Source: an uncultured Bacteroidota bacterium (GTDB lineage: Bacteria; Bacteroidota; Bacteroidia; Bacteroidales; CG2-30-32-10). From it: 32,745 nucleotides of DNA. Below the pieces are notes generated by a model. That model saw only the letters and a program-made list of their open reading frames with translations, ran no database searches and was not told where the DNA came from. The translations under genes were made by a program, and so were the position numbers. The stretch lies in assembly GCA_903889915.1 (NCBI GenBank), contig CAISZK010000022.1, positions 1 through 32,745 of the forward strand, read 5' to 3'. Numbering within the stretch: the stretch's first letter is position 1; the number at the start of each line of letters is the position of its first letter. Shown here in pieces: positions 3,106-32,702 of this stretch.

Positions 3106-5694
3106 TTAATTTTCAGTTTCTGCTCCGGCTTCAGACTTTTTAACCTTTGCAATCCTTTTTGCTTTTGCTATTTTAATTGACAACTCATCCTTTTTTGCAT
3201 CAAAGCAGATATTGATAGTGTCGCCTGCTGAAATTTTATTCTTGATGATTTCTTCTGCAAGACTATCCTCAATATATTTTTGGATGGCTCTTTTCAATGG
3301 ACGTGCACCAAACTGTTCATCCCAACCTTTTTCAAGAATGAAATCTTTGGCTTCAATACTTACGTCAATTTCATAACCCATGCCACGTATGCGAGAATAC
3401 AATCCTTTTAATTCGATGTCAATGATCTTATGGATATCTTCGCGTTTCAATGAATCAAATAGAACCACATCGTCAACCCTGTTCAGAAATTCAGGAGCGA
3501 AAGCTTTTCTTAAAGCATTTTCAATAACTCCTTTTGCATAATCTGCTGCATAAGTTTTTTTAGCGCCGGTAGTAAATCCAACACCCTGTCCAAAATCTTT
3601 AAGCTGTCTTGAACCAATGTTAGAAGTCATGATGATAATTGCATTTTTAAAATCAACACGCCTGCCCAGGCTGTCAGTCAAAATACCATCATCAAGCACC
3701 TGCAATAAAATATGGAAAACATCGGGATGAGCTTTTTCGATTTCATCAAGTAATATCACAGAGTAGGGTTTCCTTCTGACTTTTTCTGTTAGTTGTCCGC
3801 CTTCTTCATAACCCACGTATCCCGGAGGCGCTCCAATCAAACGTGACACTGCAAATTTTTCCATGTACTCACTCATATCAATACGTATAAGTGCTTCGTC
3901 GGAATCAAATAAATATTTTGAAAGAACTTTTGCCAAATGGGTCTTGCCAACACCTGTTGGACCAAGGAAAATAAATGAACCAATTGGTTTGTTGGGATCT
4001 TTAAGACCTGCACGGTTTCTGCGAATGGAACGAACAACTTTCTTTATTGACTCATCCTGTCCGATAACCAAATTTGCCAGCTCTGCTTCCATGTTAATAA
4101 GCCGCTCGCCTTCGTTCTTTGCGATTCTCTGTACAGGAATTCCTGTCATCATTGCCACCACTTCGGCAACATTTTCTTCTGTTACAATTTCCCTGTTTAT
4201 CTTAGCTTCATCTTCCCAGCGTTTCTTTTCTTTTTCTAGTTCTTCCTGCATCTTTCTTTCCATGTCCCTGTATTTTGCAGCCTCTTCATATTTCTGACTC
4301 TTGATAGCGTTGGTTTTTCCCTGTTTTGCTTCCTCTAATTTCGTTTCAAGATTTAATATTTCAATCGGGACATGAATGTTTGTTATGTGTACCCTTGCTC
4401 CGGCTTCATCCATTGCATCAATTGCTTTATCAGGAAGGCATCTGTCGCTGATATATCTTTGGGTAAAAGAAACACATGCTTTTACAGCTTCATCAGAATA
4501 GATAACGAGGTGATGATCCTCATACCTTGTTTTTATATTGTTTAAAATATCCACTGTTTCATCTGCTGATGTAGGATCAACAATTATCTTCTGAAATCTT
4601 CTTTCAAGTGCTCCGTCTTTTTCAATATACTGTCTGTACTCATCAAGGGTTGTAGCGCCGATGCACTGAATTTCTCCGCGTGAAAGAGCGGGTTTGAACA
4701 TGTTGGAAGCATCAAGAGAACCTGAAGCGCCACCGGCACCAACTATAGTATGTATCTCATCAATAAAAAGGATGACATCAGAATTTTTTTCAAGTTCATT
4801 GAGCACAGCTTTCATGCGTTCCTCAAACTGTCCGCGGTATTTTGTTCCTGCTACCAGTGAGGCTATATCAAGAGTGACAATTCTTTTATTAAACAATGCT
4901 CTTGAAACTCTTCTTTGCACTATTCGTAATGCCAAACCTTCTGCAATTGCTGATTTACCAACACCTGGTTCCCCAATTAAAATTGGATTGTTCTTTTTCC
5001 TTCTGCTGAGAATTTGTGCAATTCGCTCAAGTTCTTTTTCCCTTCCAACTACAGGGTCAAGACGATTTTCTTCAGCAAGACGAGTAAGGTCTCTGCCAAA
5101 ATTATCGAGTACCGGAGTTTTGGATTTTGAATCTCCCGGTTTCTTACTTGCAGTTCCGCCTAATCCGCCACTCTTGTCTTCCAAATCATCATCATCTTCA
5201 GAACTCCGCGGAAATTCATTTTTAATTTCGTTTGGCCTGTTGTTACTAAGAGGATTCTCATTCATTATTCCCTGAAGTTCGCCCTTGACATTGTCATAAG
5301 ATGCACCAAGTTTGTTGAGAGATTTTGTTGCAACATTGTCTTCATCTTTCAGAATAGACAAAAGTAAATGCTCTGTCCCGATCAAATCACTCTTGAAAAT
5401 TTTGGCTTCAAGATAAGTGATCTTTAAAATACGTTCTGCTTGCTTAACAAGTGGGATATTATCAAGGTTTCTGGCCTTGCCTCCATTTGGTTTTATTGAC
5501 AGTTCGATATTTTTACGAAGTTCCAGGAGGTCAACTCCGAGATAATTTAAAATTTTTATTGCCAATCCTTCACCTTCTCTGATGATTCCAAGCAAGAGGT
5601 GTTCAACACCTATATAATCATTTTGCAACCTCAGGGCTTCCTCACGGCTGTAGGAGATTACGTCTTTTACCCTTTGCGAAAATTTTGCTTCCAT
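3106..5694 (-). CDS. clpC: ATP-dependent Clp protease ATP-binding subunit ClpC
   Basis: This is a cytosolic AAA+ unfoldase that feeds substrates to the ClpP peptidase. The 862 aa match the family length. In order: a duplicated Clp N-domain (residues 1-145); an acidic/Ser linker (about 150-195); the first AAA+ module with Walker A GEPGVGKS (241-248) and Walker B LFIDEIH (309-315); a UVR-type motif in the middle domain (about 464-480, AIKSQKYEEAAKYRD), which separates ClpC from ClpB and ClpA; and the second AAA+ module with Walker A GPTGVGKT (578-585) and LLDEIEKAH. A VGF tripeptide (705-707) sits where the ClpP-docking loop is expected. It diverges from gyrA. clpP is not in the window. Confidence 0.96.
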   Translation of the reverse strand: MEAKFSQRVKDVISYSREEALRLQNDYIGVEHLLLGIIREGEGLAIKILNYLGVDLLELRKNIELSIKPNGGKARNLDNIPLVKQAERILKITYLEAKIFKSDLIGTEHLLLSILKDEDNVATKSLNKLGASYDNVKGELQGIMNENPLSNNRPNEIKNEFPRSSEDDDDLEDKSGGLGGTASKKPGDSKSKTPVLDNFGRDLTRLAEENRLDPVVGREKELERIAQILSRRKKNNPILIGEPGVGKSAIAEGLALRIVQRRVSRALFNKRIVTLDIASLVAGTKYRGQFEERMKAVLNELEKNSDVILFIDEIHTIVGAGGASGSLDASNMFKPALSRGEIQCIGATTLDEYRQYIEKDGALERRFQKIIVDPTSADETVDILNNIKTRYEDHHLVIYSDEAVKACVSFTQRYISDRCLPDKAIDAMDEAGARVHITNIHVPIEILNLETKLEEAKQGKTNAIKSQKYEEAAKYRDMERKMQEELEKEKKRWEDEAKINREIVTEENVAEVVAMMTGIPVQRIAKNEGERLINMEAELANLVIGQDESIKKVVRSIRRNRAGLKDPNKPIGSFIFLGPTGVGKTHLAKVLSKYLFDSDEALIRIDMSEYMEKFAVSRLIGAPPGYVGYEEGGQLTEKVRRKPYSVILLDEIEKAHPDVFHILLQVLDDGILTDSLGRRVDFKNAIIIMTSNIGSRQLKDFGQGVGFTTGAKKTYAADYAKGVIENALRKAFAPEFLNRVDDVVLFDSLKREDIHKIIDIELKGLYSRIRGMGYEIDVSIEAKDFILEKGWDEQFGARPLKRAIQKYIEDSLAEEIIKNKISAGDTINICFDAKKDELSIKIAKAKRIAKVKKSEAGAETEN

Positions 5695-22744: not shown

Positions 22745-24457
22745 ATGTACGAACTATACACAAAAAAACAAGATCCTTTATTCACAGAAGAGAATAAAGA
22801 TGAGAAATTCCTTAACGGAGAAAGTTTCGAAAGAAACAATAATGACGACTTGAGCTTTTCTTTTTTTAAAGCTCCTATTAATAGAAAAGAGAAAAAACCT
22901 GACAAGACAGTCTCAATTGCAATAGTTGCAGAGAAAATCAGAACTGAGTATGAAGAATTGACTGAGCAATTGCGAAAATTGCCAGCAGAAGAACAGGGAA
23001 ATTTTAAAAAGTCAAAATTTGATTTTGTAACTTATTCTGCTCAATGTTCAGTCAGGTCAAAAGCTGGCGTAACTTCCCGCTCAAATTATTTATACATCGA
23101 TATTGATAACATTGGTGATGATGAACAATTGACTATTTTAAAGAAACAAATACTGGGAAATTTTATTCCTGTCATGATGTGCGTTTCTTCAAGGGGCAAG
23201 GGCTTGCAGGTTGTTTGCAAAATTATTCCGGAAGTTGGGGAGCATGATGAATATTACTCTTCTTTTCAAAACTATTTCAACAATGATATTCTTAAAGGAA
23301 TAATGGATGCTGATGGAAACCCGTTGAAGATAGACTCTAGCTGTGGTGATGCTTCAAGAGCAGCATATCTTTGTCATGACAAAAATGTTTTTGTTAGTGA
23401 AGCTCCGACTGTTTTTGGAGTTGATCTGATTGACACTTATAAGAATTTTTCTAACCCCAAAAAGAAAGAATCTAATTCGAACTCAAAAAACAATTCAGTA
23501 ATGGAAACAGCATTGAAAATGATCAGAGATTCCCGGGATGGCGAAAAACATGATGTTTTACTAAAAGCAAGCAGGCTTGTAGGCGGTGGCATTGCCACAG
23601 GTTTCATTAACGAGAATGAAGCTATTGCATTACTGGAAGCAGAAATTAGCAAGAAGCCAATACGTAGCTTTGAAGTTGCTCAGAAAACAATCAGGGATGG
23701 AATTGAGTTTGGTAAAAAAACACCTATCGAAAAACCAAAGTATGAGAAGAAAAAAACCGAATATAACTATGTGAATTTCCCGATATGCTTAATCACCGGA
23801 ATATTTGAAGACAGTACAAGTGTGTTCAAAAATATTCTCGCTTATGCGGTTTATAAATGGTCTCTTGAGAAAAGCGTTGAAGAATTTGCTGAGAAGATAA
23901 AAAACGTATTGGATTCTTTTAAAATCCCTTTTGCAGATATTGATAATATCAAAGAGCAAGGAGAGGCATTACATAATAGCATTCCTGACACAAGTCCAAA
24001 GACAGGGATTAAATTAAGTATGCTGAATGACTATTACCTGCATAAAAAAACCGATTTTCAGATTGTAATACTTTGTGCTTTTTTGGCTTTAAAAAGCATT
24101 ATTTTTCGCAAACCATTAACCAAATGCACAAATGATTATTTGCTTTCCAGAATGGCTGGATTTAGGAGTACTGATCAAATAAATGATTTGCCAGCGACTT
24201 TGGCTAAATACAATAATCGTTATCAATTGGGGAAAATAAAAAATGAACTAATAGAACATTGGGGGTTGAAGTATGATGGTTATTATTTCCGTGGTTTTTT
24301 TGTTTCTTTTACAATGAGTGAGTTTGATTTGATAAGGGAATCAGAAAAAAAACGCAAAAAACATAAAGAGAAATTGGCAAGAACAATTCAAGCTGAAATA
24401 CGTAAACAGGTAATTCAACAACTCTATAAAGAACCAGTAGAAATAACAAAGTCATAA
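22745..24457 (+). CDS. BT4734-like primase-fold protein
   Basis: This 570-aa protein has an N-terminal domain of the BT4734/BF3469-like (formerly VirE N-terminal) family, related to archaeo-eukaryotic primases and primase-polymerases. Supporting motifs: YLYIDIDNI with metal-binding D119 and D121; SSRGKGLQVVCKI (148-160), equivalent to the sGkGlH-type strand, although Q replaces the usual H; and IDSSCGDASRAAYLCHD (197-212), equivalent to the third motif. The region after about 245 resembles the PriCT-type helical linker (DSRDGEKHDVLLKASRLVGGGIATG). The rest is unrecognised, with a lysine-rich C-terminal helix. Such proteins occur on Bacteroidetes mobile elements, often with helicases; none is present. 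It sits alone 427 bp upstream of hsdM. Confidence 0.75.
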   Translation: MYELYTKKQDPLFTEENKDEKFLNGESFERNNNDDLSFSFFKAPINRKEKKPDKTVSIAIVAEKIRTEYEELTEQLRKLPAEEQGNFKKSKFDFVTYSAQCSVRSKAGVTSRSNYLYIDIDNIGDDEQLTILKKQILGNFIPVMMCVSSRGKGLQVVCKIIPEVGEHDEYYSSFQNYFNNDILKGIMDADGNPLKIDSSCGDASRAAYLCHDKNVFVSEAPTVFGVDLIDTYKNFSNPKKKESNSNSKNNSVMETALKMIRDSRDGEKHDVLLKASRLVGGGIATGFINENEAIALLEAEISKKPIRSFEVAQKTIRDGIEFGKKTPIEKPKYEKKKTEYNYVNFPICLITGIFEDSTSVFKNILAYAVYKWSLEKSVEEFAEKIKNVLDSFKIPFADIDNIKEQGEALHNSIPDTSPKTGIKLSMLNDYYLHKKTDFQIVILCAFLALKSIIFRKPLTKCTNDYLLSRMAGFRSTDQINDLPATLAKYNNRYQLGKIKNELIEHWGLKYDGYYFRGFFVSFTMSEFDLIRESEKKRKKHKEKLARTIQAEIRKQVIQQLYKEPVEITKS

Positions 24458-24884: not shown

Positions 24885-27062
24885 ATGAATCCAAAAGTCC
24901 ATAATCAAATAGTAAGTTTCATCTGGGGTATTGCCGACGATGTATTGAGAGATGTTTTTGTAAGGGGCAAATACCGCGATATTATTCTTCCCTTTACTGT
25001 ATTGAGGCGTTTGGATGCTTTGCTGGTGACCAATAAGGAAAAAGTTCTGGAAGCAAATGCTTTTCTGATTGCACAGAAAATTGATGATAAAAAAGCTTTG
25101 GAAAACCAATCAGGAAAGCCATTTTGGAATATTTCAAAATTTACTTTTGAGTCACTTTTGAATGATGCCAATAATATCGACACCAACCTTGAAGCATATC
25201 TTGACGGTTACAGCCCGAATGTGCAGGAAATAATCAGCAAGTTCAAACTGAGGAATCAGTTGGAAACAATGAAAGAAGCTGGTGTAACATATTTGCTCAT
25301 TGAGAAACTCTGCAACAAGGAAATAAATCTTAGTCCCAATGAAGCAAAGAACAGCAAAGGCGAAGTGTTGCCTCCGTTGACAAATCTTGGAATGGGATAT
25401 GTGTTTGAGGAATTGATTCGCAAGTTCAATGAGGAAAACAATGAAGAAGCCGGAGAACACTTCACTCCGCGCGAAATCATCAAACTGATGACGCATCTTT
25501 TGTTTGTTCCTGTAAAAGACAAAATAAAAAAAGGAACTTACCTTGTTTATGACCCGGCCTGTGGAAGCGGGGGAATGCTTACGGAATCGGAAAATTTCGC
25601 ATTGGAACTCACAGGGCATAAAGCGGATTTTATGCTTTACGGGCAGGAAGTAAATCCTGAAACATACGCCATCTGCACAAGCGACATGCTTATTAAAGAG
25701 GACAAAACCGAGAACATCGCTTATGGCTCCACACTATCGAAAGATGGTTTCCCTCATTTGAATTTCGACTTTATGCTTTCCAATCCTCCTTATGGAAAAA
25801 CATGGAAAATTGATGAAGATGCCATAGTGGAAGACCGGGGGAAAAAGGGAAGTCAGAATATAAAAGACAAGCGTTTCCAGATTGGCTTGCCTTCCATTTC
25901 CGACGGGCAATTGCTGTTCCTGCTGAATATGGTGAGCAAAATGAAGCACAACACCGAATTGGGAAGCCGCATAGCCATTATCCATAATGGTTCAGCTTTG
26001 TTTACCGGCGATGCCGGAGGAGGTGAAAGCGAAATAAGAAAATATATTATTGAAAACGATTGGCTGGAATGCATCATTGCTTTGCCGAAAAATATATTCT
26101 ACAACACGGGTATACCAACTTATGTATGGATAGTTTCAAATAAAAAGGATGCAAAGCGAAAAGGCAAAGTGCAATTGATTAATGCAATGGAATTGTACGA
26201 AAAATTGCGCAAGAATCTTGGACAGAAGAATTGTGAAATGAAGCATGCACACATTGATACCATAACAAATCTCTACATGGATTTCAAGGAAAGCGACATT
26301 TCAAAAATTTATCCTAACGAATATTTTGGCTACAACAAAATAACTGTTGAACGCCCTTTGCGGCTTTCTTCACAATTTACCGCGGAAGCTATCGAAAGCT
26401 TGCGTTACGAAAAAAGCTTGCAGGAAGAAATGGAATGGGTGTACATGCATTTTAGAGATGATATTTATAAAGACATTAGTAAATACAAGGACCGAATTGA
26501 AGCACATCTGAACAAGCATGAAATTAAACTTGCAACACCCGCTAAAAATAAACTGCTGAGCGCTGAGCATTGGAAAAAACAATTAGAGTTAATGCAATCG
26601 GCGCAAAAAATAGCAGATAAAATGGGCAACAAGCAATTTGACGATTACAACAAATTTGTGCCTTTGCTTGGCAATGCTATTAAAGAGTTAAAGTTGGATA
26701 TTGATGCCAAAGGCTTGAAAAGTATATTGGATGCAGTGAGTTGGAAGAATGAAGATGCAGTGCCTGTGATAAAGAAAAAAGAAAAGGACGGCACCATCCT
26801 TTACGAACCCGACAGCGATTTGAGAGACACCGAAAATGTTCCCCTTGACCAGGACATACACGAATATTTTAAAAGGGAAGTGTTACAGCATATCCCTGAT
26901 GCATGGATAGATGAAAGCAAGACAGTGAAAGGCTACGAAATTTCGTTTACCCGTTATTTCTATAATTATGTTCCTCCACGCAGCATTGAAGAAATTACTG
27001 CGGAAATTATTGAACTTGAAAAGGAAACCGAAGGTATTTTAAATGAAATTGTAAATGACTAA
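24885..27062 (+). CDS. hsdM: Type I restriction-modification DNA methyltransferase subunit
   Basis: HsdM is an N6-adenine methyltransferase acting with HsdS, using S-adenosylmethionine. An HsdM N-terminal helical domain (about 10-140) precedes the catalytic domain. That domain shows EEAGEHFTPREIIKLM (188-202), motif I VYDPACGSGGML (221-232) and motif IV NPPYGKTW (300-307). Later come LLNMVSKM, IAIIHNGSALFTG and DWLECIIALPKNIFYNTGIPTYVWIV. At 725 aa it is longer than E. coli HsdM (529 aa). The C-terminal 200 or so residues are helical and charged, as in many Bacteroidetes HsdM proteins. The stop overlaps the hsdS start by 1 nt (TAATG), which suggests coupled translation. Confidence 0.95.
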   Translation: MNPKVHNQIVSFIWGIADDVLRDVFVRGKYRDIILPFTVLRRLDALLVTNKEKVLEANAFLIAQKIDDKKALENQSGKPFWNISKFTFESLLNDANNIDTNLEAYLDGYSPNVQEIISKFKLRNQLETMKEAGVTYLLIEKLCNKEINLSPNEAKNSKGEVLPPLTNLGMGYVFEELIRKFNEENNEEAGEHFTPREIIKLMTHLLFVPVKDKIKKGTYLVYDPACGSGGMLTESENFALELTGHKADFMLYGQEVNPETYAICTSDMLIKEDKTENIAYGSTLSKDGFPHLNFDFMLSNPPYGKTWKIDEDAIVEDRGKKGSQNIKDKRFQIGLPSISDGQLLFLLNMVSKMKHNTELGSRIAIIHNGSALFTGDAGGGESEIRKYIIENDWLECIIALPKNIFYNTGIPTYVWIVSNKKDAKRKGKVQLINAMELYEKLRKNLGQKNCEMKHAHIDTITNLYMDFKESDISKIYPNEYFGYNKITVERPLRLSSQFTAEAIESLRYEKSLQEEMEWVYMHFRDDIYKDISKYKDRIEAHLNKHEIKLATPAKNKLLSAEHWKKQLELMQSAQKIADKMGNKQFDDYNKFVPLLGNAIKELKLDIDAKGLKSILDAVSWKNEDAVPVIKKKEKDGTILYEPDSDLRDTENVPLDQDIHEYFKREVLQHIPDAWIDESKTVKGYEISFTRYFYNYVPPRSIEEITAEIIELEKETEGILNEIVND

Positions 27063-28477
27063 TGGCAATCAAAACACAACCATATACGGACTACAGACCT
27101 GTTAATTTGAATTTTACAAAAAAAATTCCTTCGGATTGGATTGTTAAAAGAGCTAAGTTTTTCTTCAAAGAAATTAGCGAACGTTCTATTAAAGGAGAAG
27201 AACAATTATTATCAGTTTCTGAACATAAAGGCATAGTTCCTCGAGATTCAATAAATGTTACAATGTTTCAGGCATTAAGTTACGAAGGTTATAAACTTTG
27301 TAATAAAGGTGACATTGTAATAAATAGTTTATGGGCATGGCATAGAGGCTTGGGTGTTTCGGAATATCATGGTATTGTCAGTACTGCATATGGTGTATAC
27401 CGCCCTCTAAAACCAGCACAATGGAACCACAGATACTTGAATTATCTGCTCAGAGATAAAGCTTATGTGGGCGAATGCTTGATACGATCGAAAGGCATTT
27501 GGGAGTCAAGATACCAATTGACAGGCAGCAATTTTTTAGATATTCCAATTATTAAGCCGCCTTTGGAAGTTCAAAACAGCATTGTAGAATATTTAGACAA
27601 AAAGAACAGCGAAATTGAAAAGTTTATTCGGAATAAAGAAAGGTTGATTGAGATTTTGGAGGATCAAAAAAAATCAGAAATTACTAGAATTATTGTTGAA
27701 GGAGTAGAAGGAAATGAAGCACTAAAAGAATTAGACCAGACTGATATTCCCTATATGCCTTTTAAAAATAAGAGCTCTGAAATCAAACGTCTGAAATATT
27801 TAGCTTCTTTGAAAGGAAGGATTGGATTTCATGGTTTAAAAACATCGGATTTTACTAATGAAGGGCCTTTTCTTATTACAGGTACTGACTTTATTGAAGG
27901 TAGAATAAATTGGGATACTTCTGTCCATATTACGATGAAGCGATATAAAGAAAACCCATATATTCAACTTAAAGAGGGTGATTTCTTAATTACAAAGGAC
28001 GGAACAATTGGTAAAACAGCAATTGTAGATAATCTTCCATATGAAGCATCTTTAAATAGTGGTGTTATGCTGGTTCGATCATTGAGAGGAGAATTTTTAA
28101 ATAAATATCTTTTTTGGATAATAAATTCAAGAATATTTGATGAATTTGTGGAGATTACTAAAACAGGTTCCACTGTGATGCATTTATATCAACATTCATT
28201 TGGAAATTTCAAAATACCAATTCCAGATTTAAATACGCAAGGTTTAATTGTTCAGGAAATTGAATTAGTTATTTCAAAATTGAATTCAGCAATTTCCAAA
28301 GCCCAAAAAGAAATAGCTGCCATTAAAGAGTACAGAGAGGCATTGATAACGGATTTGGTAACAGGGAAAAAACAAGTACCTTCAACTTATTCTGTAGGTG
28401 TTGCAGAAGAAAATATACTATGTGCTGCTGAAGAAGGTGCTACTTATAATGCAGATAATGATAAACAACAAGCGTAA
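27062..28477 (+). CDS. hsdS: Type I restriction-modification specificity subunit
   Basis: HsdS recognises the bipartite target and bridges HsdM and HsdR. Its 471 aa have two target-recognition domains. The first (about 20-175) ends in DIPIIKPPLEVQNSIVEYL, followed by the central coiled-coil spacer (KKNSEIEKFIRNKERLIEIL). The second (about 240-395) ends in FKIPIPDLNTQGLIVQEI, followed by the distal conserved helix (AQKEIAAIKEYREALITDLVTGK). Two different recognition domains imply an asymmetric split target, not readable from sequence. After the conserved end, a 30-residue acidic, Ala-rich tail is unusual. Base composition is AT-richer than in hsdM. It is translationally coupled to hsdM. Confidence 0.93.
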   Translation: MAIKTQPYTDYRPVNLNFTKKIPSDWIVKRAKFFFKEISERSIKGEEQLLSVSEHKGIVPRDSINVTMFQALSYEGYKLCNKGDIVINSLWAWHRGLGVSEYHGIVSTAYGVYRPLKPAQWNHRYLNYLLRDKAYVGECLIRSKGIWESRYQLTGSNFLDIPIIKPPLEVQNSIVEYLDKKNSEIEKFIRNKERLIEILEDQKKSEITRIIVEGVEGNEALKELDQTDIPYMPFKNKSSEIKRLKYLASLKGRIGFHGLKTSDFTNEGPFLITGTDFIEGRINWDTSVHITMKRYKENPYIQLKEGDFLITKDGTIGKTAIVDNLPYEASLNSGVMLVRSLRGEFLNKYLFWIINSRIFDEFVEITKTGSTVMHLYQHSFGNFKIPIPDLNTQGLIVQEIELVISKLNSAISKAQKEIAAIKEYREALITDLVTGKKQVPSTYSVGVAEENILCAAEEGATYNADNDKQQA

Positions 28478-28534
28478 TAACGATAACGACAATAATAATT
28501 AATAACTATAAGCCATCAGGGTTATATCATGCAC

Positions 28535-28584
28535 TTATAACCTCCATAGGTTATAATAGTACTAAATAACCTGAGGAGGTTATT
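28535..28584. promoter_or_regulatory. Twin perfect palindromes between hsdS and satD
   Basis: TTATAACCT-CCAT-AGGTTATAA (28535-28556, 9-bp arms) and AATAACCT-GAGG-AGGTTATT (28565-28584, 8-bp arms) share the core ATAACCT-N4-AGGTTAT. Their centres are 29 bp apart. No T-run follows, so they look more like protein-binding sites or paired RNA hairpins than intrinsic terminators. They lie 70-120 nt before the satD start, separating hsdMS from satD-DUF3307-hsdR. Confidence 0.7.
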
Positions 28585-28653
28585 ATTCAAGCTAAGGATG
28601 TAATTGATAAAAGAACCTATAATGATCATAATGAATAAACGAATAATAGACAC

Positions 28654-29346
28654 ATGGGAATAAACGCTGTTATTACAGGTGATTTGGTTAAATCACGTAA
28701 GATAATAAATGATGATATTGCACCTGTTATTAAATCATTAAAAGAAACGTTCAGTGAGATCAAGCATGAGCTACTGAACGGAAAAGGAACATTTGAAATA
28801 TTCAGGGGCGATAGTTTTCAGGGACAGATACCCAGGCCTGAGTTAGCTTTACTTGTTTCAATCATCATAAGAGCACGTCTTCGCAGTTATGAACCCTTAT
28901 TTGTTTCAATTGGCAGCAGAAAACAAGACAAGCCGATACTACATTCCTATAGTGATGCACGCATTGCAATAGGTATTGGTTCTGTCAGCTACAATGCAAA
29001 ACGGATAGCAGAGTCACAAGGCGAAGCATTCGAAAAATCAGGACATGCATTTGATGAAATGCAAAAGGAAAATGAACGCCTTGCCATTGCCACTCCGTGG
29101 GAAAACATAAACAACGAACTTGAGGTGGAGTGTAAACTTGCTGATGCAATTATCAGCCGCTGGACAGCAAGTACTGCCGAAGCCATGTATCATCATTTGC
29201 TGTATGGCAGCAACCAAAAGGAATTGGCTGCTCAATTAAAAATTTCGCAACCGGGAGTATATAAAAGACTTACTGTATATGGTAATGCCGGCACACTTCA
29301 GGTTCTCTTAAACAGGTATGCTGAATTAATTACTAAAGCAAAATAG
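28654..29346 (+). CDS. SatD family protein with C-terminal helix-turn-helix
   Basis: This 230-aa protein has the SatD-family opening NAVITGDLVKSRKI (4-17), plus FEIFRGDSFQGQI (47-59) and ARIAIGIGS (102-110), followed by AKRIAESQGEAFEKSGHAFDEM. The N-terminal domain pattern (paired Asp at D10 and D53 in GD turns, then an IGIG strand and a GxAFxxSG helix) recalls class III nucleotide cyclases. That is my inference, not an established fact. Residues 186-210 (SNQKELAAQLKISQPGVYKRLTVYG) are a convincing helix-turn-helix. SatD of Streptococcus mutans is linked to acid tolerance, with no known mechanism. Here it is 1 nt from the DUF3307 gene and sits inside a type I R-M locus, with two palindromes upstream. 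Confidence 0.8.
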   Translation: MGINAVITGDLVKSRKIINDDIAPVIKSLKETFSEIKHELLNGKGTFEIFRGDSFQGQIPRPELALLVSIIIRARLRSYEPLFVSIGSRKQDKPILHSYSDARIAIGIGSVSYNAKRIAESQGEAFEKSGHAFDEMQKENERLAIATPWENINNELEVECKLADAIISRWTASTAEAMYHHLLYGSNQKELAAQLKISQPGVYKRLTVYGNAGTLQVLLNRYAELITKAK

Positions 29347-29347
29347 T

Positions 29348-30091
29348 ATGGCTGCTTTAAATTTTGAATTATTACTGCGAATATTGATCGCGCATCTTTT
29401 GTCTGATTTTGTTTTCCAACCTACTTCATGGGCAAAAGAAAAAGATGAGCATGGTTTAAAATCCGGCTATTTCCTGCTTCACATTTTAATTAATATTGTC
29501 GTACTCGCTGTTTTTCTTTGGAATTTGCATTTATGGCTGATTATACTAATTGTCAGTGTTGGTCATTTAATTATAGATGCAATTAAAATCAAACTGCAAA
29601 ACAGTGGTGTGTGGATTTTTTTAGCAGATCAGTTTTTACACCTGCTGTTAATAGTGATGGTTTGGCTTGTTTATACAAATCAGTTTCAATTGTTTTGTAA
29701 TATTATTTCTGAATCATTAAATAACCAGAAACTTTGGTGGCTGTTTCTTGGTTATCTTTTATTAAGTCTTCCTGCAGCAGTATTGATTGGTAAACTAACC
29801 AGGAAATGGAGCGAAGAAATAGAAGGACTGGAAGAACCTGGGAAAAGTAAAGGATTGGAAAATGCAGGAAAGTGGATAGGCGTTTTGGAACGCTTATTGA
29901 TTTTTACGTTTATAGTTTTGAATAAATTGAGCATATTGGGATTTTTGCTTGCTTCAAAATCCGTATTTCGTTTTGGAGATTTGAAAAACTCATCACAGCA
30001 CAAAAAAACAGAATACATCATTATCGGAACATTTTTAAGTTTTTCAATTGCAATAGCAGTTGGTTTGATTTATAAATTCATAACAAAATAA
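29348..30091 (+). CDS. DUF3307 family polytopic membrane protein
   Basis: This is a 247-aa inner-membrane protein with about six or seven hydrophobic segments (near residues 5-24, 42-60, 62-80, 92-110, 130-148, 180-203 and 224-244). Polar residues inside the membrane segments form the family pattern: H16 and D20 in AHLLSDFVFQ, H45 in LLHILIN, H73 and D77 in GHLIIDAIK, and D94 and H98 in ADQFLHLL. These could bind a metal, as in membrane-embedded hydrolases of the YdjM type, but that is inference. DUF3307 genes are often seen beside satD. Here the pair is separated by 1 nt, and hsdR starts 4 nt after, so the three should be co-translated. Confidence 0.82.
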   Translation: MAALNFELLLRILIAHLLSDFVFQPTSWAKEKDEHGLKSGYFLLHILINIVVLAVFLWNLHLWLIILIVSVGHLIIDAIKIKLQNSGVWIFLADQFLHLLLIVMVWLVYTNQFQLFCNIISESLNNQKLWWLFLGYLLLSLPAAVLIGKLTRKWSEEIEGLEEPGKSKGLENAGKWIGVLERLLIFTFIVLNKLSILGFLLASKSVFRFGDLKNSSQHKKTEYIIIGTFLSFSIAIAVGLIYKFITK

Positions 30092-30095
30092 ACCC

Positions 30096-32702
30096 ATGCA
30101 ATTTACTGACACATCAGAAAAAGCATTTCAATTATTCATCACAAAGTTTCTGGTTGATGAACAAAAATATATCGAAGCCACACCAGCCGAGTTTGACCGT
30201 GAGTTTTGCATTAATTCCAAACAATTATTTTCTTTTATTGAAGCCACACAAAAGGAAACGTATGAAATGATACAGCGGAAAGGCGAGCGCAGTTTCATGG
30301 TCAGACTTGATGAGAAAATAAAAGAGTTGGGTGTAATTGAAGTGCTGCGCAAAGGGGTTAAGCATTATGATAAGACTGTGGAATTATTTTATCACAAACC
30401 TTCATCAGCTTATAATACCAAAGATGCTGCAAAATATAAAGCCAATATTTTTTCTGTCACACAGGAACTGAGATATAGTATTGATCATGAAAACCGTTTA
30501 GACCTCACAATATTTATTAATGGCATTCCGCTAATTACATGCGAACTGAAAAACCCGCTCAGCGGACAAACAGTTCATAATGGAATCAGGCAATATCAAA
30601 ATGACCGTGACCCAAAGGATAAAATATTTTCGTTTGCCCGCTGTATGGTTCATTTTGCCGCCGACACCGAATTGGTGTACATGTGTACAGAGTTGAAAAA
30701 GAAAGATTCGTTTTTTATTCCTTTCAATAAGGGAATGAATGATGGCAGTCCAATCCCTCCTTTCGGAGCAGGAAACCCTGTAAATCCAAAAGGATTGAAG
30801 ACGCATTATCTTTGGGAAAATGTGCTAAGCAAGGACTCGCTGAGCAATATCATTGATCAATTTGCATTAGTGATTGAAGAAACCAACGAAGACACAGGAA
30901 AGAAGAAAAAGAAAATGATATTTCCCCGTTATCATCAATTAACATCTGTAAAGCAGATACTGGCTCATGCAAAAACAAACGGGATAGGACAACGTTACCT
31001 TATTCAACATTCAGCAGGTTCGGGCAAATCAAAATCTATTGCATGGATTGCACATCAGTTGCATGGATTGTTTGACAACAGCGGCGAAAAAAATATTTTT
31101 GATTCAGTGGTAGTAGTCACAGACAGGACAGTTTTGGATAAGCAACTGCGGGATGATATTAAACAATTTTCACAAAAAGCAGGCATTGTTGAGGCGATTA
31201 CAGGAGAAGGCGAAAGCAAAACGAATCAGTTGCGGGAAGCTATTGTCAATAAAAAGAAAGTTATCATCTGCACTATTCAAACTTTTCCTCATTTATTAAA
31301 AGAAATGGAGGATTTAGGTTCGTTAAAATTTGCTATTATAATTGACGAAGCACACAGCACACAGAGCGGCGAAACATCAGCTAAAATGAATGCTGTGTTA
31401 GCCGACAAAAACACCAATGAAGATAATGATGCAGAGGACACAGAAGAACCAACACTTGAAGACAAGATAAATGATCTGATAGAAAACCGTAAAATGATTA
31501 AGAACGGCTCATACTTCGCTTTTACTGCAACACCCAAAAATAAAACACTTGAAACCTTTGGAGTGCACAGGAAATATATGAAAGCAGGTGAAGAAAAAAC
31601 CGCTTTCGATGCTTTCCATTTGTATTCGATGAAACAGGCAATAGAGGAAGAATTCATATTGGATGTGCTGGAAAATTACACCACCTATAATTCATTTTAT
31701 AAACTCATTAAATCAGTTGAGGAGAATCCTGAATACGATACCAAACAGGCACAAAAAAAACTGAGGGCTTACGTTGAAGGAATTGAATTTGCCATAGGTG
31801 AGAAAGCAAAAATTATGATTGATCATTTTCATCGTGAGGTGAAACATTTGATAAATGGTGAAGCAAAGGCAATGATAGTAACCAAAAGCATACATGCTGC
31901 TATAAAGTACAAACACGCATTTGACGATTATCTGAAAGAAATAAAATCACCTTTCAAAGCCATCGTTGCTTTTTCAGGAAAGAAGGAATACAAGGGTGTG
32001 GAGTATGACGAAACAAGCATGAATAATTTTGTAAGCTATAAATATGATATTCCAAAAAACTTTAAGAAAAATGAATATCGTTTTTTAATAGTAGCACAAA
32101 AATATCAAACAGGATTCGACCAGCCTCTTTTACATACAATGTATGTTGACAAAAAGCTAAGAGATGTGCAGACGGTGCAGACTCTTTCGCGCCTGAACAG
32201 GGCGTATAAACCTCACAAGAAAGATACTTTTGTACTCGACTTTTATAACACAACCGAAGAAATAAAAGAGGCTTTCGAACCTTATTATACTTCAACAATA
32301 TTAAGCGAAGAAACAAGTCCCAATAAACTTAACGACCTTGTAGATGCACTGGAGAAATTTGAAATTTATAACGAAGAAATTGTGAAGGATTTCTTCGAAA
32401 AGTATATCAACAAAGCAGAGAGAAATATTTTAGACCCTATCATTGATGCAGCAGCGCACATTTTTAAATTCGACCTTAACACTGACAAAAAAGTTGACTT
32501 TAAAGTAAAAGTAAAATCATTTTTGAGAACTTACAGTTACCTTGCAAAACTGCTCGATTTTAATAATCTTTATTGGGAGCAATTATGGTGGTATCTCAAA
32601 TACCTGTTGAAAATTCCGATGATTCGGCGCCACCCCTACCGGTCGAAACGGCGCCACCCGTACCGGTGCAAACGGCGCCACCTAAATTGGGCAAATTTGT
32701 GA
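30096..32702 (+). CDS. hsdR: Type I restriction endonuclease subunit R, C-terminally altered
   Basis: HsdR is the ATP-dependent translocase and nuclease. The nuclease domain shows DHENRLDLTIFINGIPLITCELKN with D136, E150 and K152 of the PD-(D/E)xK centre. The SF2 motor follows: Walker A HSAGSGKSKS (305-314), VVVTDRTVLDKQL, DEAH in IIDEAHSTQSG, FAFTATPKNKTLETFG, and the late motif VAQKYQTGFDQPLLHTMYVDKKLRDVQTVQTLSRLNRAY. The conserved helical region runs to YWEQLWWYLKYLL (about 832). After that the protein ends abruptly in three repeats (RRHPYRSK, RRHPYRCK, RRHLNWAN; residues 844-867) and stops at 868. Family members usually continue to roughly 950 residues or more with a helical domain that contacts HsdM/HsdS. 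It may therefore be truncated or inactive. The gene is 4 nt from DUF3307. Confidence 0.88.
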   Translation: MQFTDTSEKAFQLFITKFLVDEQKYIEATPAEFDREFCINSKQLFSFIEATQKETYEMIQRKGERSFMVRLDEKIKELGVIEVLRKGVKHYDKTVELFYHKPSSAYNTKDAAKYKANIFSVTQELRYSIDHENRLDLTIFINGIPLITCELKNPLSGQTVHNGIRQYQNDRDPKDKIFSFARCMVHFAADTELVYMCTELKKKDSFFIPFNKGMNDGSPIPPFGAGNPVNPKGLKTHYLWENVLSKDSLSNIIDQFALVIEETNEDTGKKKKKMIFPRYHQLTSVKQILAHAKTNGIGQRYLIQHSAGSGKSKSIAWIAHQLHGLFDNSGEKNIFDSVVVVTDRTVLDKQLRDDIKQFSQKAGIVEAITGEGESKTNQLREAIVNKKKVIICTIQTFPHLLKEMEDLGSLKFAIIIDEAHSTQSGETSAKMNAVLADKNTNEDNDAEDTEEPTLEDKINDLIENRKMIKNGSYFAFTATPKNKTLETFGVHRKYMKAGEEKTAFDAFHLYSMKQAIEEEFILDVLENYTTYNSFYKLIKSVEENPEYDTKQAQKKLRAYVEGIEFAIGEKAKIMIDHFHREVKHLINGEAKAMIVTKSIHAAIKYKHAFDDYLKEIKSPFKAIVAFSGKKEYKGVEYDETSMNNFVSYKYDIPKNFKKNEYRFLIVAQKYQTGFDQPLLHTMYVDKKLRDVQTVQTLSRLNRAYKPHKKDTFVLDFYNTTEEIKEAFEPYYTSTILSEETSPNKLNDLVDALEKFEIYNEEIVKDFFEKYINKAERNILDPIIDAAAHIFKFDLNTDKKVDFKVKVKSFLRTYSYLAKLLDFNNLYWEQLWWYLKYLLKIPMIRRHPYRSKRRHPYRCKRRHLNWANL
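32625..32696. repeat. Three 24-bp GC-rich direct repeats at the 3' end of hsdR
   Basis: Units start with CGGCGCCACC at 32625, 32649 and 32673. The first two are near-identical (3 differences) and contain ACCGGT. The third diverges after the first 10 bases. They are much richer in G and C than the flanking gene. The hsdR frame reads them as RRHPYRSK-type octapeptides. The frame one base back reads APPLPVET, APPVPVQT, APPKLGKF and stops at 32711-32713. Confidence 0.85.

Follow-up and report, generated by a model that had tools for sequence, protein, structure and literature searches.

A SatD and membrane protein pair carried between hsdS and hsdR of a Bacteroidota type I restriction locus: a candidate autoregulated nucleotide-signalling module

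The type I restriction-modification locus of an uncultured Bacteroidota bacterium (GenBank assembly GCA_903889915.1) carries, between hsdS and hsdR, a satD gene followed by a gene for a DUF3307 membrane protein, and this pair is one of many cargoes of that interval, a free-standing module that does not belong to the type I restriction machinery. We propose, giving the proposal about an even chance, that the pair is an autoregulated nucleotide-signalling module restraining a membrane effector and carried as cargo in the hsdS-hsdR slot. The proposal starts from computed features, namely the fold of SatD and its two-aspartate site, the near-obligate pairing with a membrane protein, the domain dissection of that partner, an operator array upstream of satD and the cargo position.

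The stretch of DNA analysed, hereafter the window, is 32,745 nucleotides long and is one entire contig (CAISZK010000022.1) of a 5.55-Mb, 476-contig assembly in which DUF3307 is single-copy. All five genes discussed here lie on the forward strand: hsdM at 24885..27062 (type I methyltransferase subunit; Pfam N6_Mtase, E 1.5e-64, and HsdM_N; PADLOC MTase_I, E 9e-267), hsdS at 27062..28477 (type I specificity subunit; Pfam Methylase_S, E 4.9e-16; PADLOC Specificity_I), satD at 28654..29346 (230 aa; Pfam SatD, PF16264), the DUF3307 gene at 29348..30091 (247 aa; Pfam DUF3307, PF11750) and hsdR at 30096..32702 (type I restriction subunit; Pfam HSDR_N and SWI2_SNF2). The hsd genes belong to the host locus, outside the module. 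The order hsdM-hsdS-satD-DUF3307-hsdR given by the first-pass annotation was borne out by the ORF coordinates and by a Pfam match for each gene, and the coordinates likewise returned its gaps of 1 nt between satD and the DUF3307 gene and 4 nt between the latter and hsdR; hsdS and satD are separated by 176 nt. The C-terminus of hsdR is missing at the contig end. The window HsdR is 58% identical to that of another locus (L085) up to residue ~844 and divergent beyond, and the contig terminates (32607-32745) in a short G+C-rich repeat also present at the ends of, or within, contigs C392, C389, C45, C312, C176 and C174. Since this repeat is common to other contig ends, either a repeat element interrupts hsdR or the assembly has cut it short. 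Upstream of hsdM, a 570-aa BT4734-like/PrimPol-related protein is encoded at 22745-24457, and in locus L087 a DUF3987/PriCT-2 protein lies near the corresponding place; this may indicate that the hsd locus travels on a mobile element.

The window SatD scores barely above the PF16264 cut-off (32.4 bits against 29, E 9.1e-8), the same profile reaching 110.9, 53.5 and 51.6 bits in Haloplanus, Fusobacterium and A. tumefaciens respectively. Its AF2 model (pLDDT 91.7) shows a domain of the order beta-alpha-beta-beta-alpha-beta-alpha-beta and, after it, helical elements, among them a helix-turn-helix (HTH), giving a layout of an N-terminal, cyclase-like palm domain (approximately residues 1-150, with D10 and G52-D53) and a C-terminal HTH (approximately residues 172-215). 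The Foldseek matches listed for this model were GGDEF or class III adenylyl/guanylyl cyclases (E 4e-5 to ~2e-3), and VIA aligned ~115-160 residues (rmsd 2.6-3.8) with Z ~10-11 to GGDEF, to guanylyl/adenylyl cyclase and to the Cas10/Cmr2 palm, scores so closely tied that the subfamily of SatD is not separable by them. The best sequence-profile match among 177,635 PDB sequences was the adenylyl cyclase Ma1120, at an E of only 0.0044, and D10 and G52-D53 of SatD align on its Asp and Gly-Asp. The model places D10 at the end of strand 1 and D53 in the turn between beta2 and beta3, the positions expected of a two-metal palm site, and the protein thus displays both the fold of the palm superfamily and its two metal-type acidic residues.

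Among 194 homologues (median pairwise identity 26%) the two most conserved positions are these same aspartates, D53 at 99.5% and D10 at 99.0%; the remaining catalytic residues of class III enzymes vary, position 134 for instance being D, E or N. The conservation of D10 and D53 is good evidence that a metal site is maintained, whichever reaction, if any, it serves; SatD is likely to make a nucleotide or at the least to bind one. That SatD might be a degenerate pseudo-enzyme was rejected on the same conservation. The one clear loss of both aspartates is a homologue (L212, genome G057, 3977-4603) in which they are replaced by K and N and which is also without the membrane partner and the 28-29-bp array described below; it is a natural test case of decay.

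The partner of SatD falls into two parts. PF11750 matches the window protein with 82.4 bits against a cut-off of 23 (E 2.1e-23 to 3.5e-23), covering residues 8-115 only, and this N-terminal half (29348..29692, +) has conserved H16, D20, Q24, H45, H73, D77, F91, Q95 and H98 in alignments, the His, Asp and Gln residues suggesting that the DUF3307 domain may have a site of its own. The second part, delimited by alignment, is a C-terminal membrane domain (29729..30088, +) with the motif GxxIGxLER ... AAKSxxRF ... EYxLIGTLxS, for which no family over cut-off was found in Pfam, NCBIfam or PADLOC. The model of the partner is helical and without a beta-barrel, and comparison of the DUF3307 protein with the PDB by sequence and fold gave no clear match. 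In other lineages the membrane domain stands alone as a protein of ~105-160 aa (L166, L167 and many other loci): alphaproteobacterial satD is followed by a ~140-160-aa protein matching only the C-terminal part of DUF3307 proteins, and a search with the SatD profile added numerous Bacteroidota satD genes that lack DUF3307. Of these, 40 loci were retrieved, and in almost every one the next gene encodes the membrane domain, either by itself (~104-124 aa) or preceded by another N-terminal segment.

The membrane domain lies directly downstream of satD, on the same strand and with satD always first, in 189 of 195 SatD loci, a set spanning bacteria and a haloarchaeal plasmid and including close relatives, so that it does not represent 195 independent events. 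At 102 of the junctions the two genes overlap and at 78 they lie within 20 nt of each other; the exceptions to pairing comprise some loci at contig edges and the orphans L199 and L212. This constancy argues against a chance arrangement in the window, as does the return of the order hsdS-satD-DUF3307-hsdR in three other loci (L067, L085 and L087). Dissection of the domains across loci led us to reject DUF3307 as the constant partner: because many SatD loci have the membrane domain without DUF3307, the constant partner is the C-terminal membrane domain and DUF3307 is an optional addition. The earlier description of a regulator-like soluble protein beside a polytopic membrane protein was right but incomplete, as SatD has a cyclase-type palm and the constant membrane half is not DUF3307. 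Both window proteins score above the cut-offs of PF16264 and PF11750, and haloarchaeal and fusobacterial SatDs score strongly and adjoin DUF3307 proteins; the two are filed as separate families, neither of which covers the shared C-terminal membrane domain.

The 176-nt gap between hsdS and satD contains three tandem palindromes, TATAAGC-catcag-GGTTATA (28507..28526; 147 nt before the satD start and 29 bp from the next), TATAACC-tccata-GGTTATA (28536..28555; 118 nt before the start) and AATAACC-tgagga-GGTTATT (28565..28584; 89 nt before the start codon). No further site with one mismatch or fewer to the second and best of these (TATAACCTNNNNAGGTTATA) was found in the 5.55-Mb assembly. The arrangement is widespread in the family: in 141 of 195 satD upstream regions the best period combining repeat and palindrome is 28 or 29 bp, and in 145 it is 27-30 bp, a range found for 22 of 260 control genes. 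Strong arrays with a period in that range precede satD in 92 of 195 cases and none of the 260 controls. Under a stricter chain test the positives were 43% for satD upstream regions, compared with 0.7% for the 973 control genes and 0.2% for shuffles. The operator half-site varies by lineage while the spacing geometry is constant, with the same layout in a haloarchaeon (L165), as would be expected of an autoregulator coevolving with its site. Autoregulation by the SatD HTH is the natural reading of these predicted operators, and as hsdR lies downstream of them with no large gap, SatD may also set hsdR levels in the window. The upstream strand folds better than shuffled sequence (z -2.3), which is expected because of the palindromes. 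Just 3' of them a promoter-like match, TTGATA-17-CATAAT (28604..28632, +), is weak, such matches being no more numerous in the region than shuffling predicts; the Bacteroidota promoter consensus differs from the one scored here, and the match is no evidence of a promoter.

The first-pass annotation had connected the pair with the restriction subunit, and an accessory role in the type I system, either making restriction follow methylation or tethering HsdR to the membrane, would fit the 4-nt spacing to hsdR and the order shared by four loci, L085 and L087 (from a set of 80 named loci, ordered by how similar they are to the window) reading hsdM, hsdS, satD, DUF3307, hsdR and L067 sharing the hsdS-hsdR placement. 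A repressor of type I loci also has a real precedent in RptR (PMC12255303). The pair is real, its operon-like spacing with hsdR stands and its placement recurs beyond a single genome. Against a special tie, HSDR_N was found within 10 kb of the pair, among the matches listed, in the window and two other genomes (G124 and G152) of the 80 pair-bearing genomes (79 besides that of the window), where our own estimate from ~2 hsdR genes per genome gives ~1 by chance, and a constant association with hsd genes was accordingly absent. In G124 the pair (L067) occupies the same hsdS-hsdR slot as in the window. In G152 (L044) it is divergent from the type I operon, ~120 bp away, with the hsd genes transcribed away from satD, and is not embedded. 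Approximately 97% of the pairs examined do not adjoin hsd genes.

The interval itself was surveyed in 40 hsdR loci (L239-L278) from the pair-survey genomes, 38 of which had hsdS upstream on the same strand, and in 35 of these 38 Bacteroidota loci it held at least one other gene of at least 100 aa. Twelve of the 72 cargo proteins match GmrSD, and others belong to Fic, RhuM, AAA_21, Abi_2, Abi_C, HEPN, PD-T4-2 and SspE-like families. The hsdS-hsdR interval is therefore a general insertion or cargo slot in Bacteroidota, with unrelated and often defence-like content, and this is why the pair recurs in hsd loci, though rarely. Independent cargo inside type I loci has already been published (TgvAB, RloF, DarTG2; PMC11411939, PMC12255303). 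Four loci of the survey (L251, L252, L254 and L269) have an extra hsdS in opposite orientation beside hsdS, followed by a ~308-317-aa gene, and these opposed pairs are probably invertible and phase-variable. On a tree of 63 pairs the label 'in an hsd locus' needs four changes, gains being indistinguishable from losses in this count; L067 lies far from the other three loci, and the bootstrap is not fully settled. A single ancestral insertion into hsd loci was rejected on these four changes, and a functional tie to type I restriction on the absence of clear hsdR enrichment together with the slot survey. With nearly all pairs elsewhere, unrelated cargo in the slot and several tree changes, we regard the accessory role as very unlikely. 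Among the three roles initially guessed, a second defence module fits best, while a restriction-specific role finds no support.

The satD and DUF3307 genes of Bacteroidota nearly always occur together, and their presence is patchy, with DUF3307 in 77 of 296 Bacteroidota genomes and any SatD-profile match, some of them weak, in 118 of 296. Many Bacteroidota have a single copy of the pair per genome, among ordinary neighbours and at a chromosomal position that is conserved within the genus. It also occurs in Fusobacterium, on a haloarchaeal plasmid, on plasmids of Pseudomonas, Enterobacter, Vibrio, Salinivibrio, Segatella and Sphingomonas, and on Escherichia/Klebsiella plasmids of 3.77-4.4 kb whose main cargo, besides maintenance genes, it is. 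The immediate neighbours of the pair on a Sphingomonas insulae plasmid (NZ_CP048421.1, L081) are an annotated Pycsar system and a TIR-domain gene, together with an AAA ATPase/helicase pair; the satD module lies near HipA, AbiE and HEPN genes on pAt of A. tumefaciens and beside AbiE in Haloplanus, and toxin-antitoxin genes occur in the neighbourhood of the pair on pPFL. The pair most similar to that of the window (L082, 60% identity) neighbours Fic, RhuM and a HipA N-terminal domain; other neighbourhoods consist of ordinary genes. Searches for DUF3307 proteins in a phage collection, and for the pair by DNA in an E. coli genome collection, found none. One SatD-DUF3307 pair (L162) is on an IMG/VR contig classified as viral. 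A role of the module in phage defence is suggested by its neighbourhoods and the hsd slot; the conserved chromosomal positions in several genera allow a physiological one.

Catalysis, autorepression, toxicity of the effector, a phage trigger or defensive role and control of hsdR are the parts of the proposed scheme that we infer. The palm domain of SatD would make, or at least bind, a nucleotide, its HTH would occupy the tandem palindromes spaced by 28-29 bp and repress its own operon and, here, hsdR 4 nt downstream, and the invariant C-terminal domain of the membrane partner would be the effector or receptor, with DUF3307 as an N-terminal addition. The membrane protein of a resting cell would be held silent by SatD or by the nucleotide that SatD makes; phage (or stress) would remove the nucleotide or disable SatD, whereupon the membrane protein would act on the cell membrane, and the same trigger would derepress the operon and hsdR. 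A pangenome study of S. pyogenes reports satD as the only gene there that is accessory and nevertheless essential (PMC11323703), which by analogy resembles the signature of an antitoxin, an argument that depends on the partner being present in that species. Together the palm domain, the HTH with its operators, the near-obligate membrane partner and this essentiality point to a membrane effector kept in check by SatD, the essentiality favouring either restraint or, on the toxin-antitoxin model, direct neutralisation by the protein itself. Counting against the scheme are the lack of clear hsdR enrichment, of a PADLOC model for the window proteins and of a fixed residue at position 134, together with the acid-tolerance link of streptococcal satD; the conserved chromosomal place and single copy suit a housekeeping regulator no less than a defence gene.

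Direct neutralisation would make the pair a toxin-antitoxin system without a second messenger, SatD binding a toxic membrane protein and autoregulating on the tandem operators, with a palm that only senses a nucleotide. The locus has the layout of a type II system (adjacent genes, the DNA-binding partner first, operator-like repeats before them), and the overlapping two-gene operon, the palindromic operators, carriage on tiny plasmids, neighbourhoods rich in toxin-antitoxin genes and the essential accessory gene of S. pyogenes (PMC11323703) all agree with it; the near-absolute conservation of both metal aspartates, however, exceeds the need of a ligand-binding relic, and we hold this reading as possible, if on the unlikely side. 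Those aspartates, in a cyclase-type palm paired with a membrane protein, would also suit Pycsar-like activation, in which SatD would make a cyclic nucleotide only on infection and so switch the effector on. Published PycCs have class III catalytic motifs with two metal-coordinating aspartates (PMC11224242), and the pair adjoins a Pycsar locus in Sphingomonas. Loss of a pure activator should nevertheless be tolerated, yet satD is essential in the S. pyogenes strains carrying it (PMC11323703), and the HTH and operator array are without counterpart in the description of Pycsar (PMC11224242), which makes activation of this kind improbable in our estimation. We are similarly doubtful of a physiological operon for membrane homeostasis or acid/envelope stress that has come to lie in an hsd locus by accident: single copies at conserved chromosomal places within several genera, and the link of streptococcal sat genes to acid tolerance in the literature, speak for it, whereas the patchy presence in Bacteroidota, the occurrence on plasmids and the repeated placement in the hsdS-hsdR slot on different tree branches speak against it.

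The proposed restraining module has a close analogue in Panoptes, where a constitutive nucleotide restrains the effector and loss of the synthase is toxic (PMC12657218, PMC12657230), and toxicity of the same kind would explain an essential accessory satD. Both Panoptes (OptS/mCpol with OptE/2TM-beta) and the present module have two genes, for a palm-domain nucleotide cyclase (cyclase-like in SatD) and a membrane effector (a candidate one here); SatD differs in its C-terminal HTH and iterated operator array, and its partner model is helical without a beta-barrel. Neither window protein had a PADLOC match up to E 10, in a 2023 library that may have no Panoptes model, and the partner at L016 had one weak match to a 2TM effector (E 0.026). 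With Pycsar (PycC with PycTM/PycTIR), in which the nucleotide activates the effector (PMC11224242), the module shares a class III-type core with two metal aspartates and, in one Pycsar class, a membrane effector; it differs in the HTH of SatD and in the partner's own conserved motif set, and in PADLOC the PycC profile did not match the window SatD nor the Pycsar effector profile its partner. TgvAB, RloF and DarTG2 with RptR are independent defence or toxin-antitoxin modules inside an hsd operon (PMC11411939, PMC12255303), the window cargo differing from them as a cyclase-like protein and a membrane protein with their own iterated operator. More specifically, though we think it unlikely, the module could be a second inhibitory guard family: SatD would constitutively make a decoy cyclic nucleotide that closes a membrane killer, and would also repress its own operon on the iterated operator; loss of signalling nucleotides to phage enzymes or sponges (e.g. 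anti-Pycsar proteins) would trigger killing and derepression, here including hsdR. The authors of Panoptes speculated on possible guards of Pycsar or Thoeris nucleotide pools (PMC12657218).

The gene satD is named after acid tolerance in Streptococcus, and the literature found on it concerns acid tolerance or essentiality only, DUF3307 being touched on briefly in a single paper; in that search, with bioRxiv and most subscription journals outside its range, neither a connection of SatD to the cyclase fold nor a mechanism for satD was found. The anatomy described here gives satD a biochemical hypothesis, combining palm-domain nucleotide chemistry, a membrane effector and an iterated operator, in a module that ranges over Bacteroidota, Pseudomonadota, Fusobacteriota and haloarchaea. 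It also indicates that the family has been misfiled, its constant partner being an unnamed membrane domain and not DUF3307. If the inhibitory-signalling reading is true, the module would be a second example of Panoptes-like logic, one that incorporates transcriptional control.
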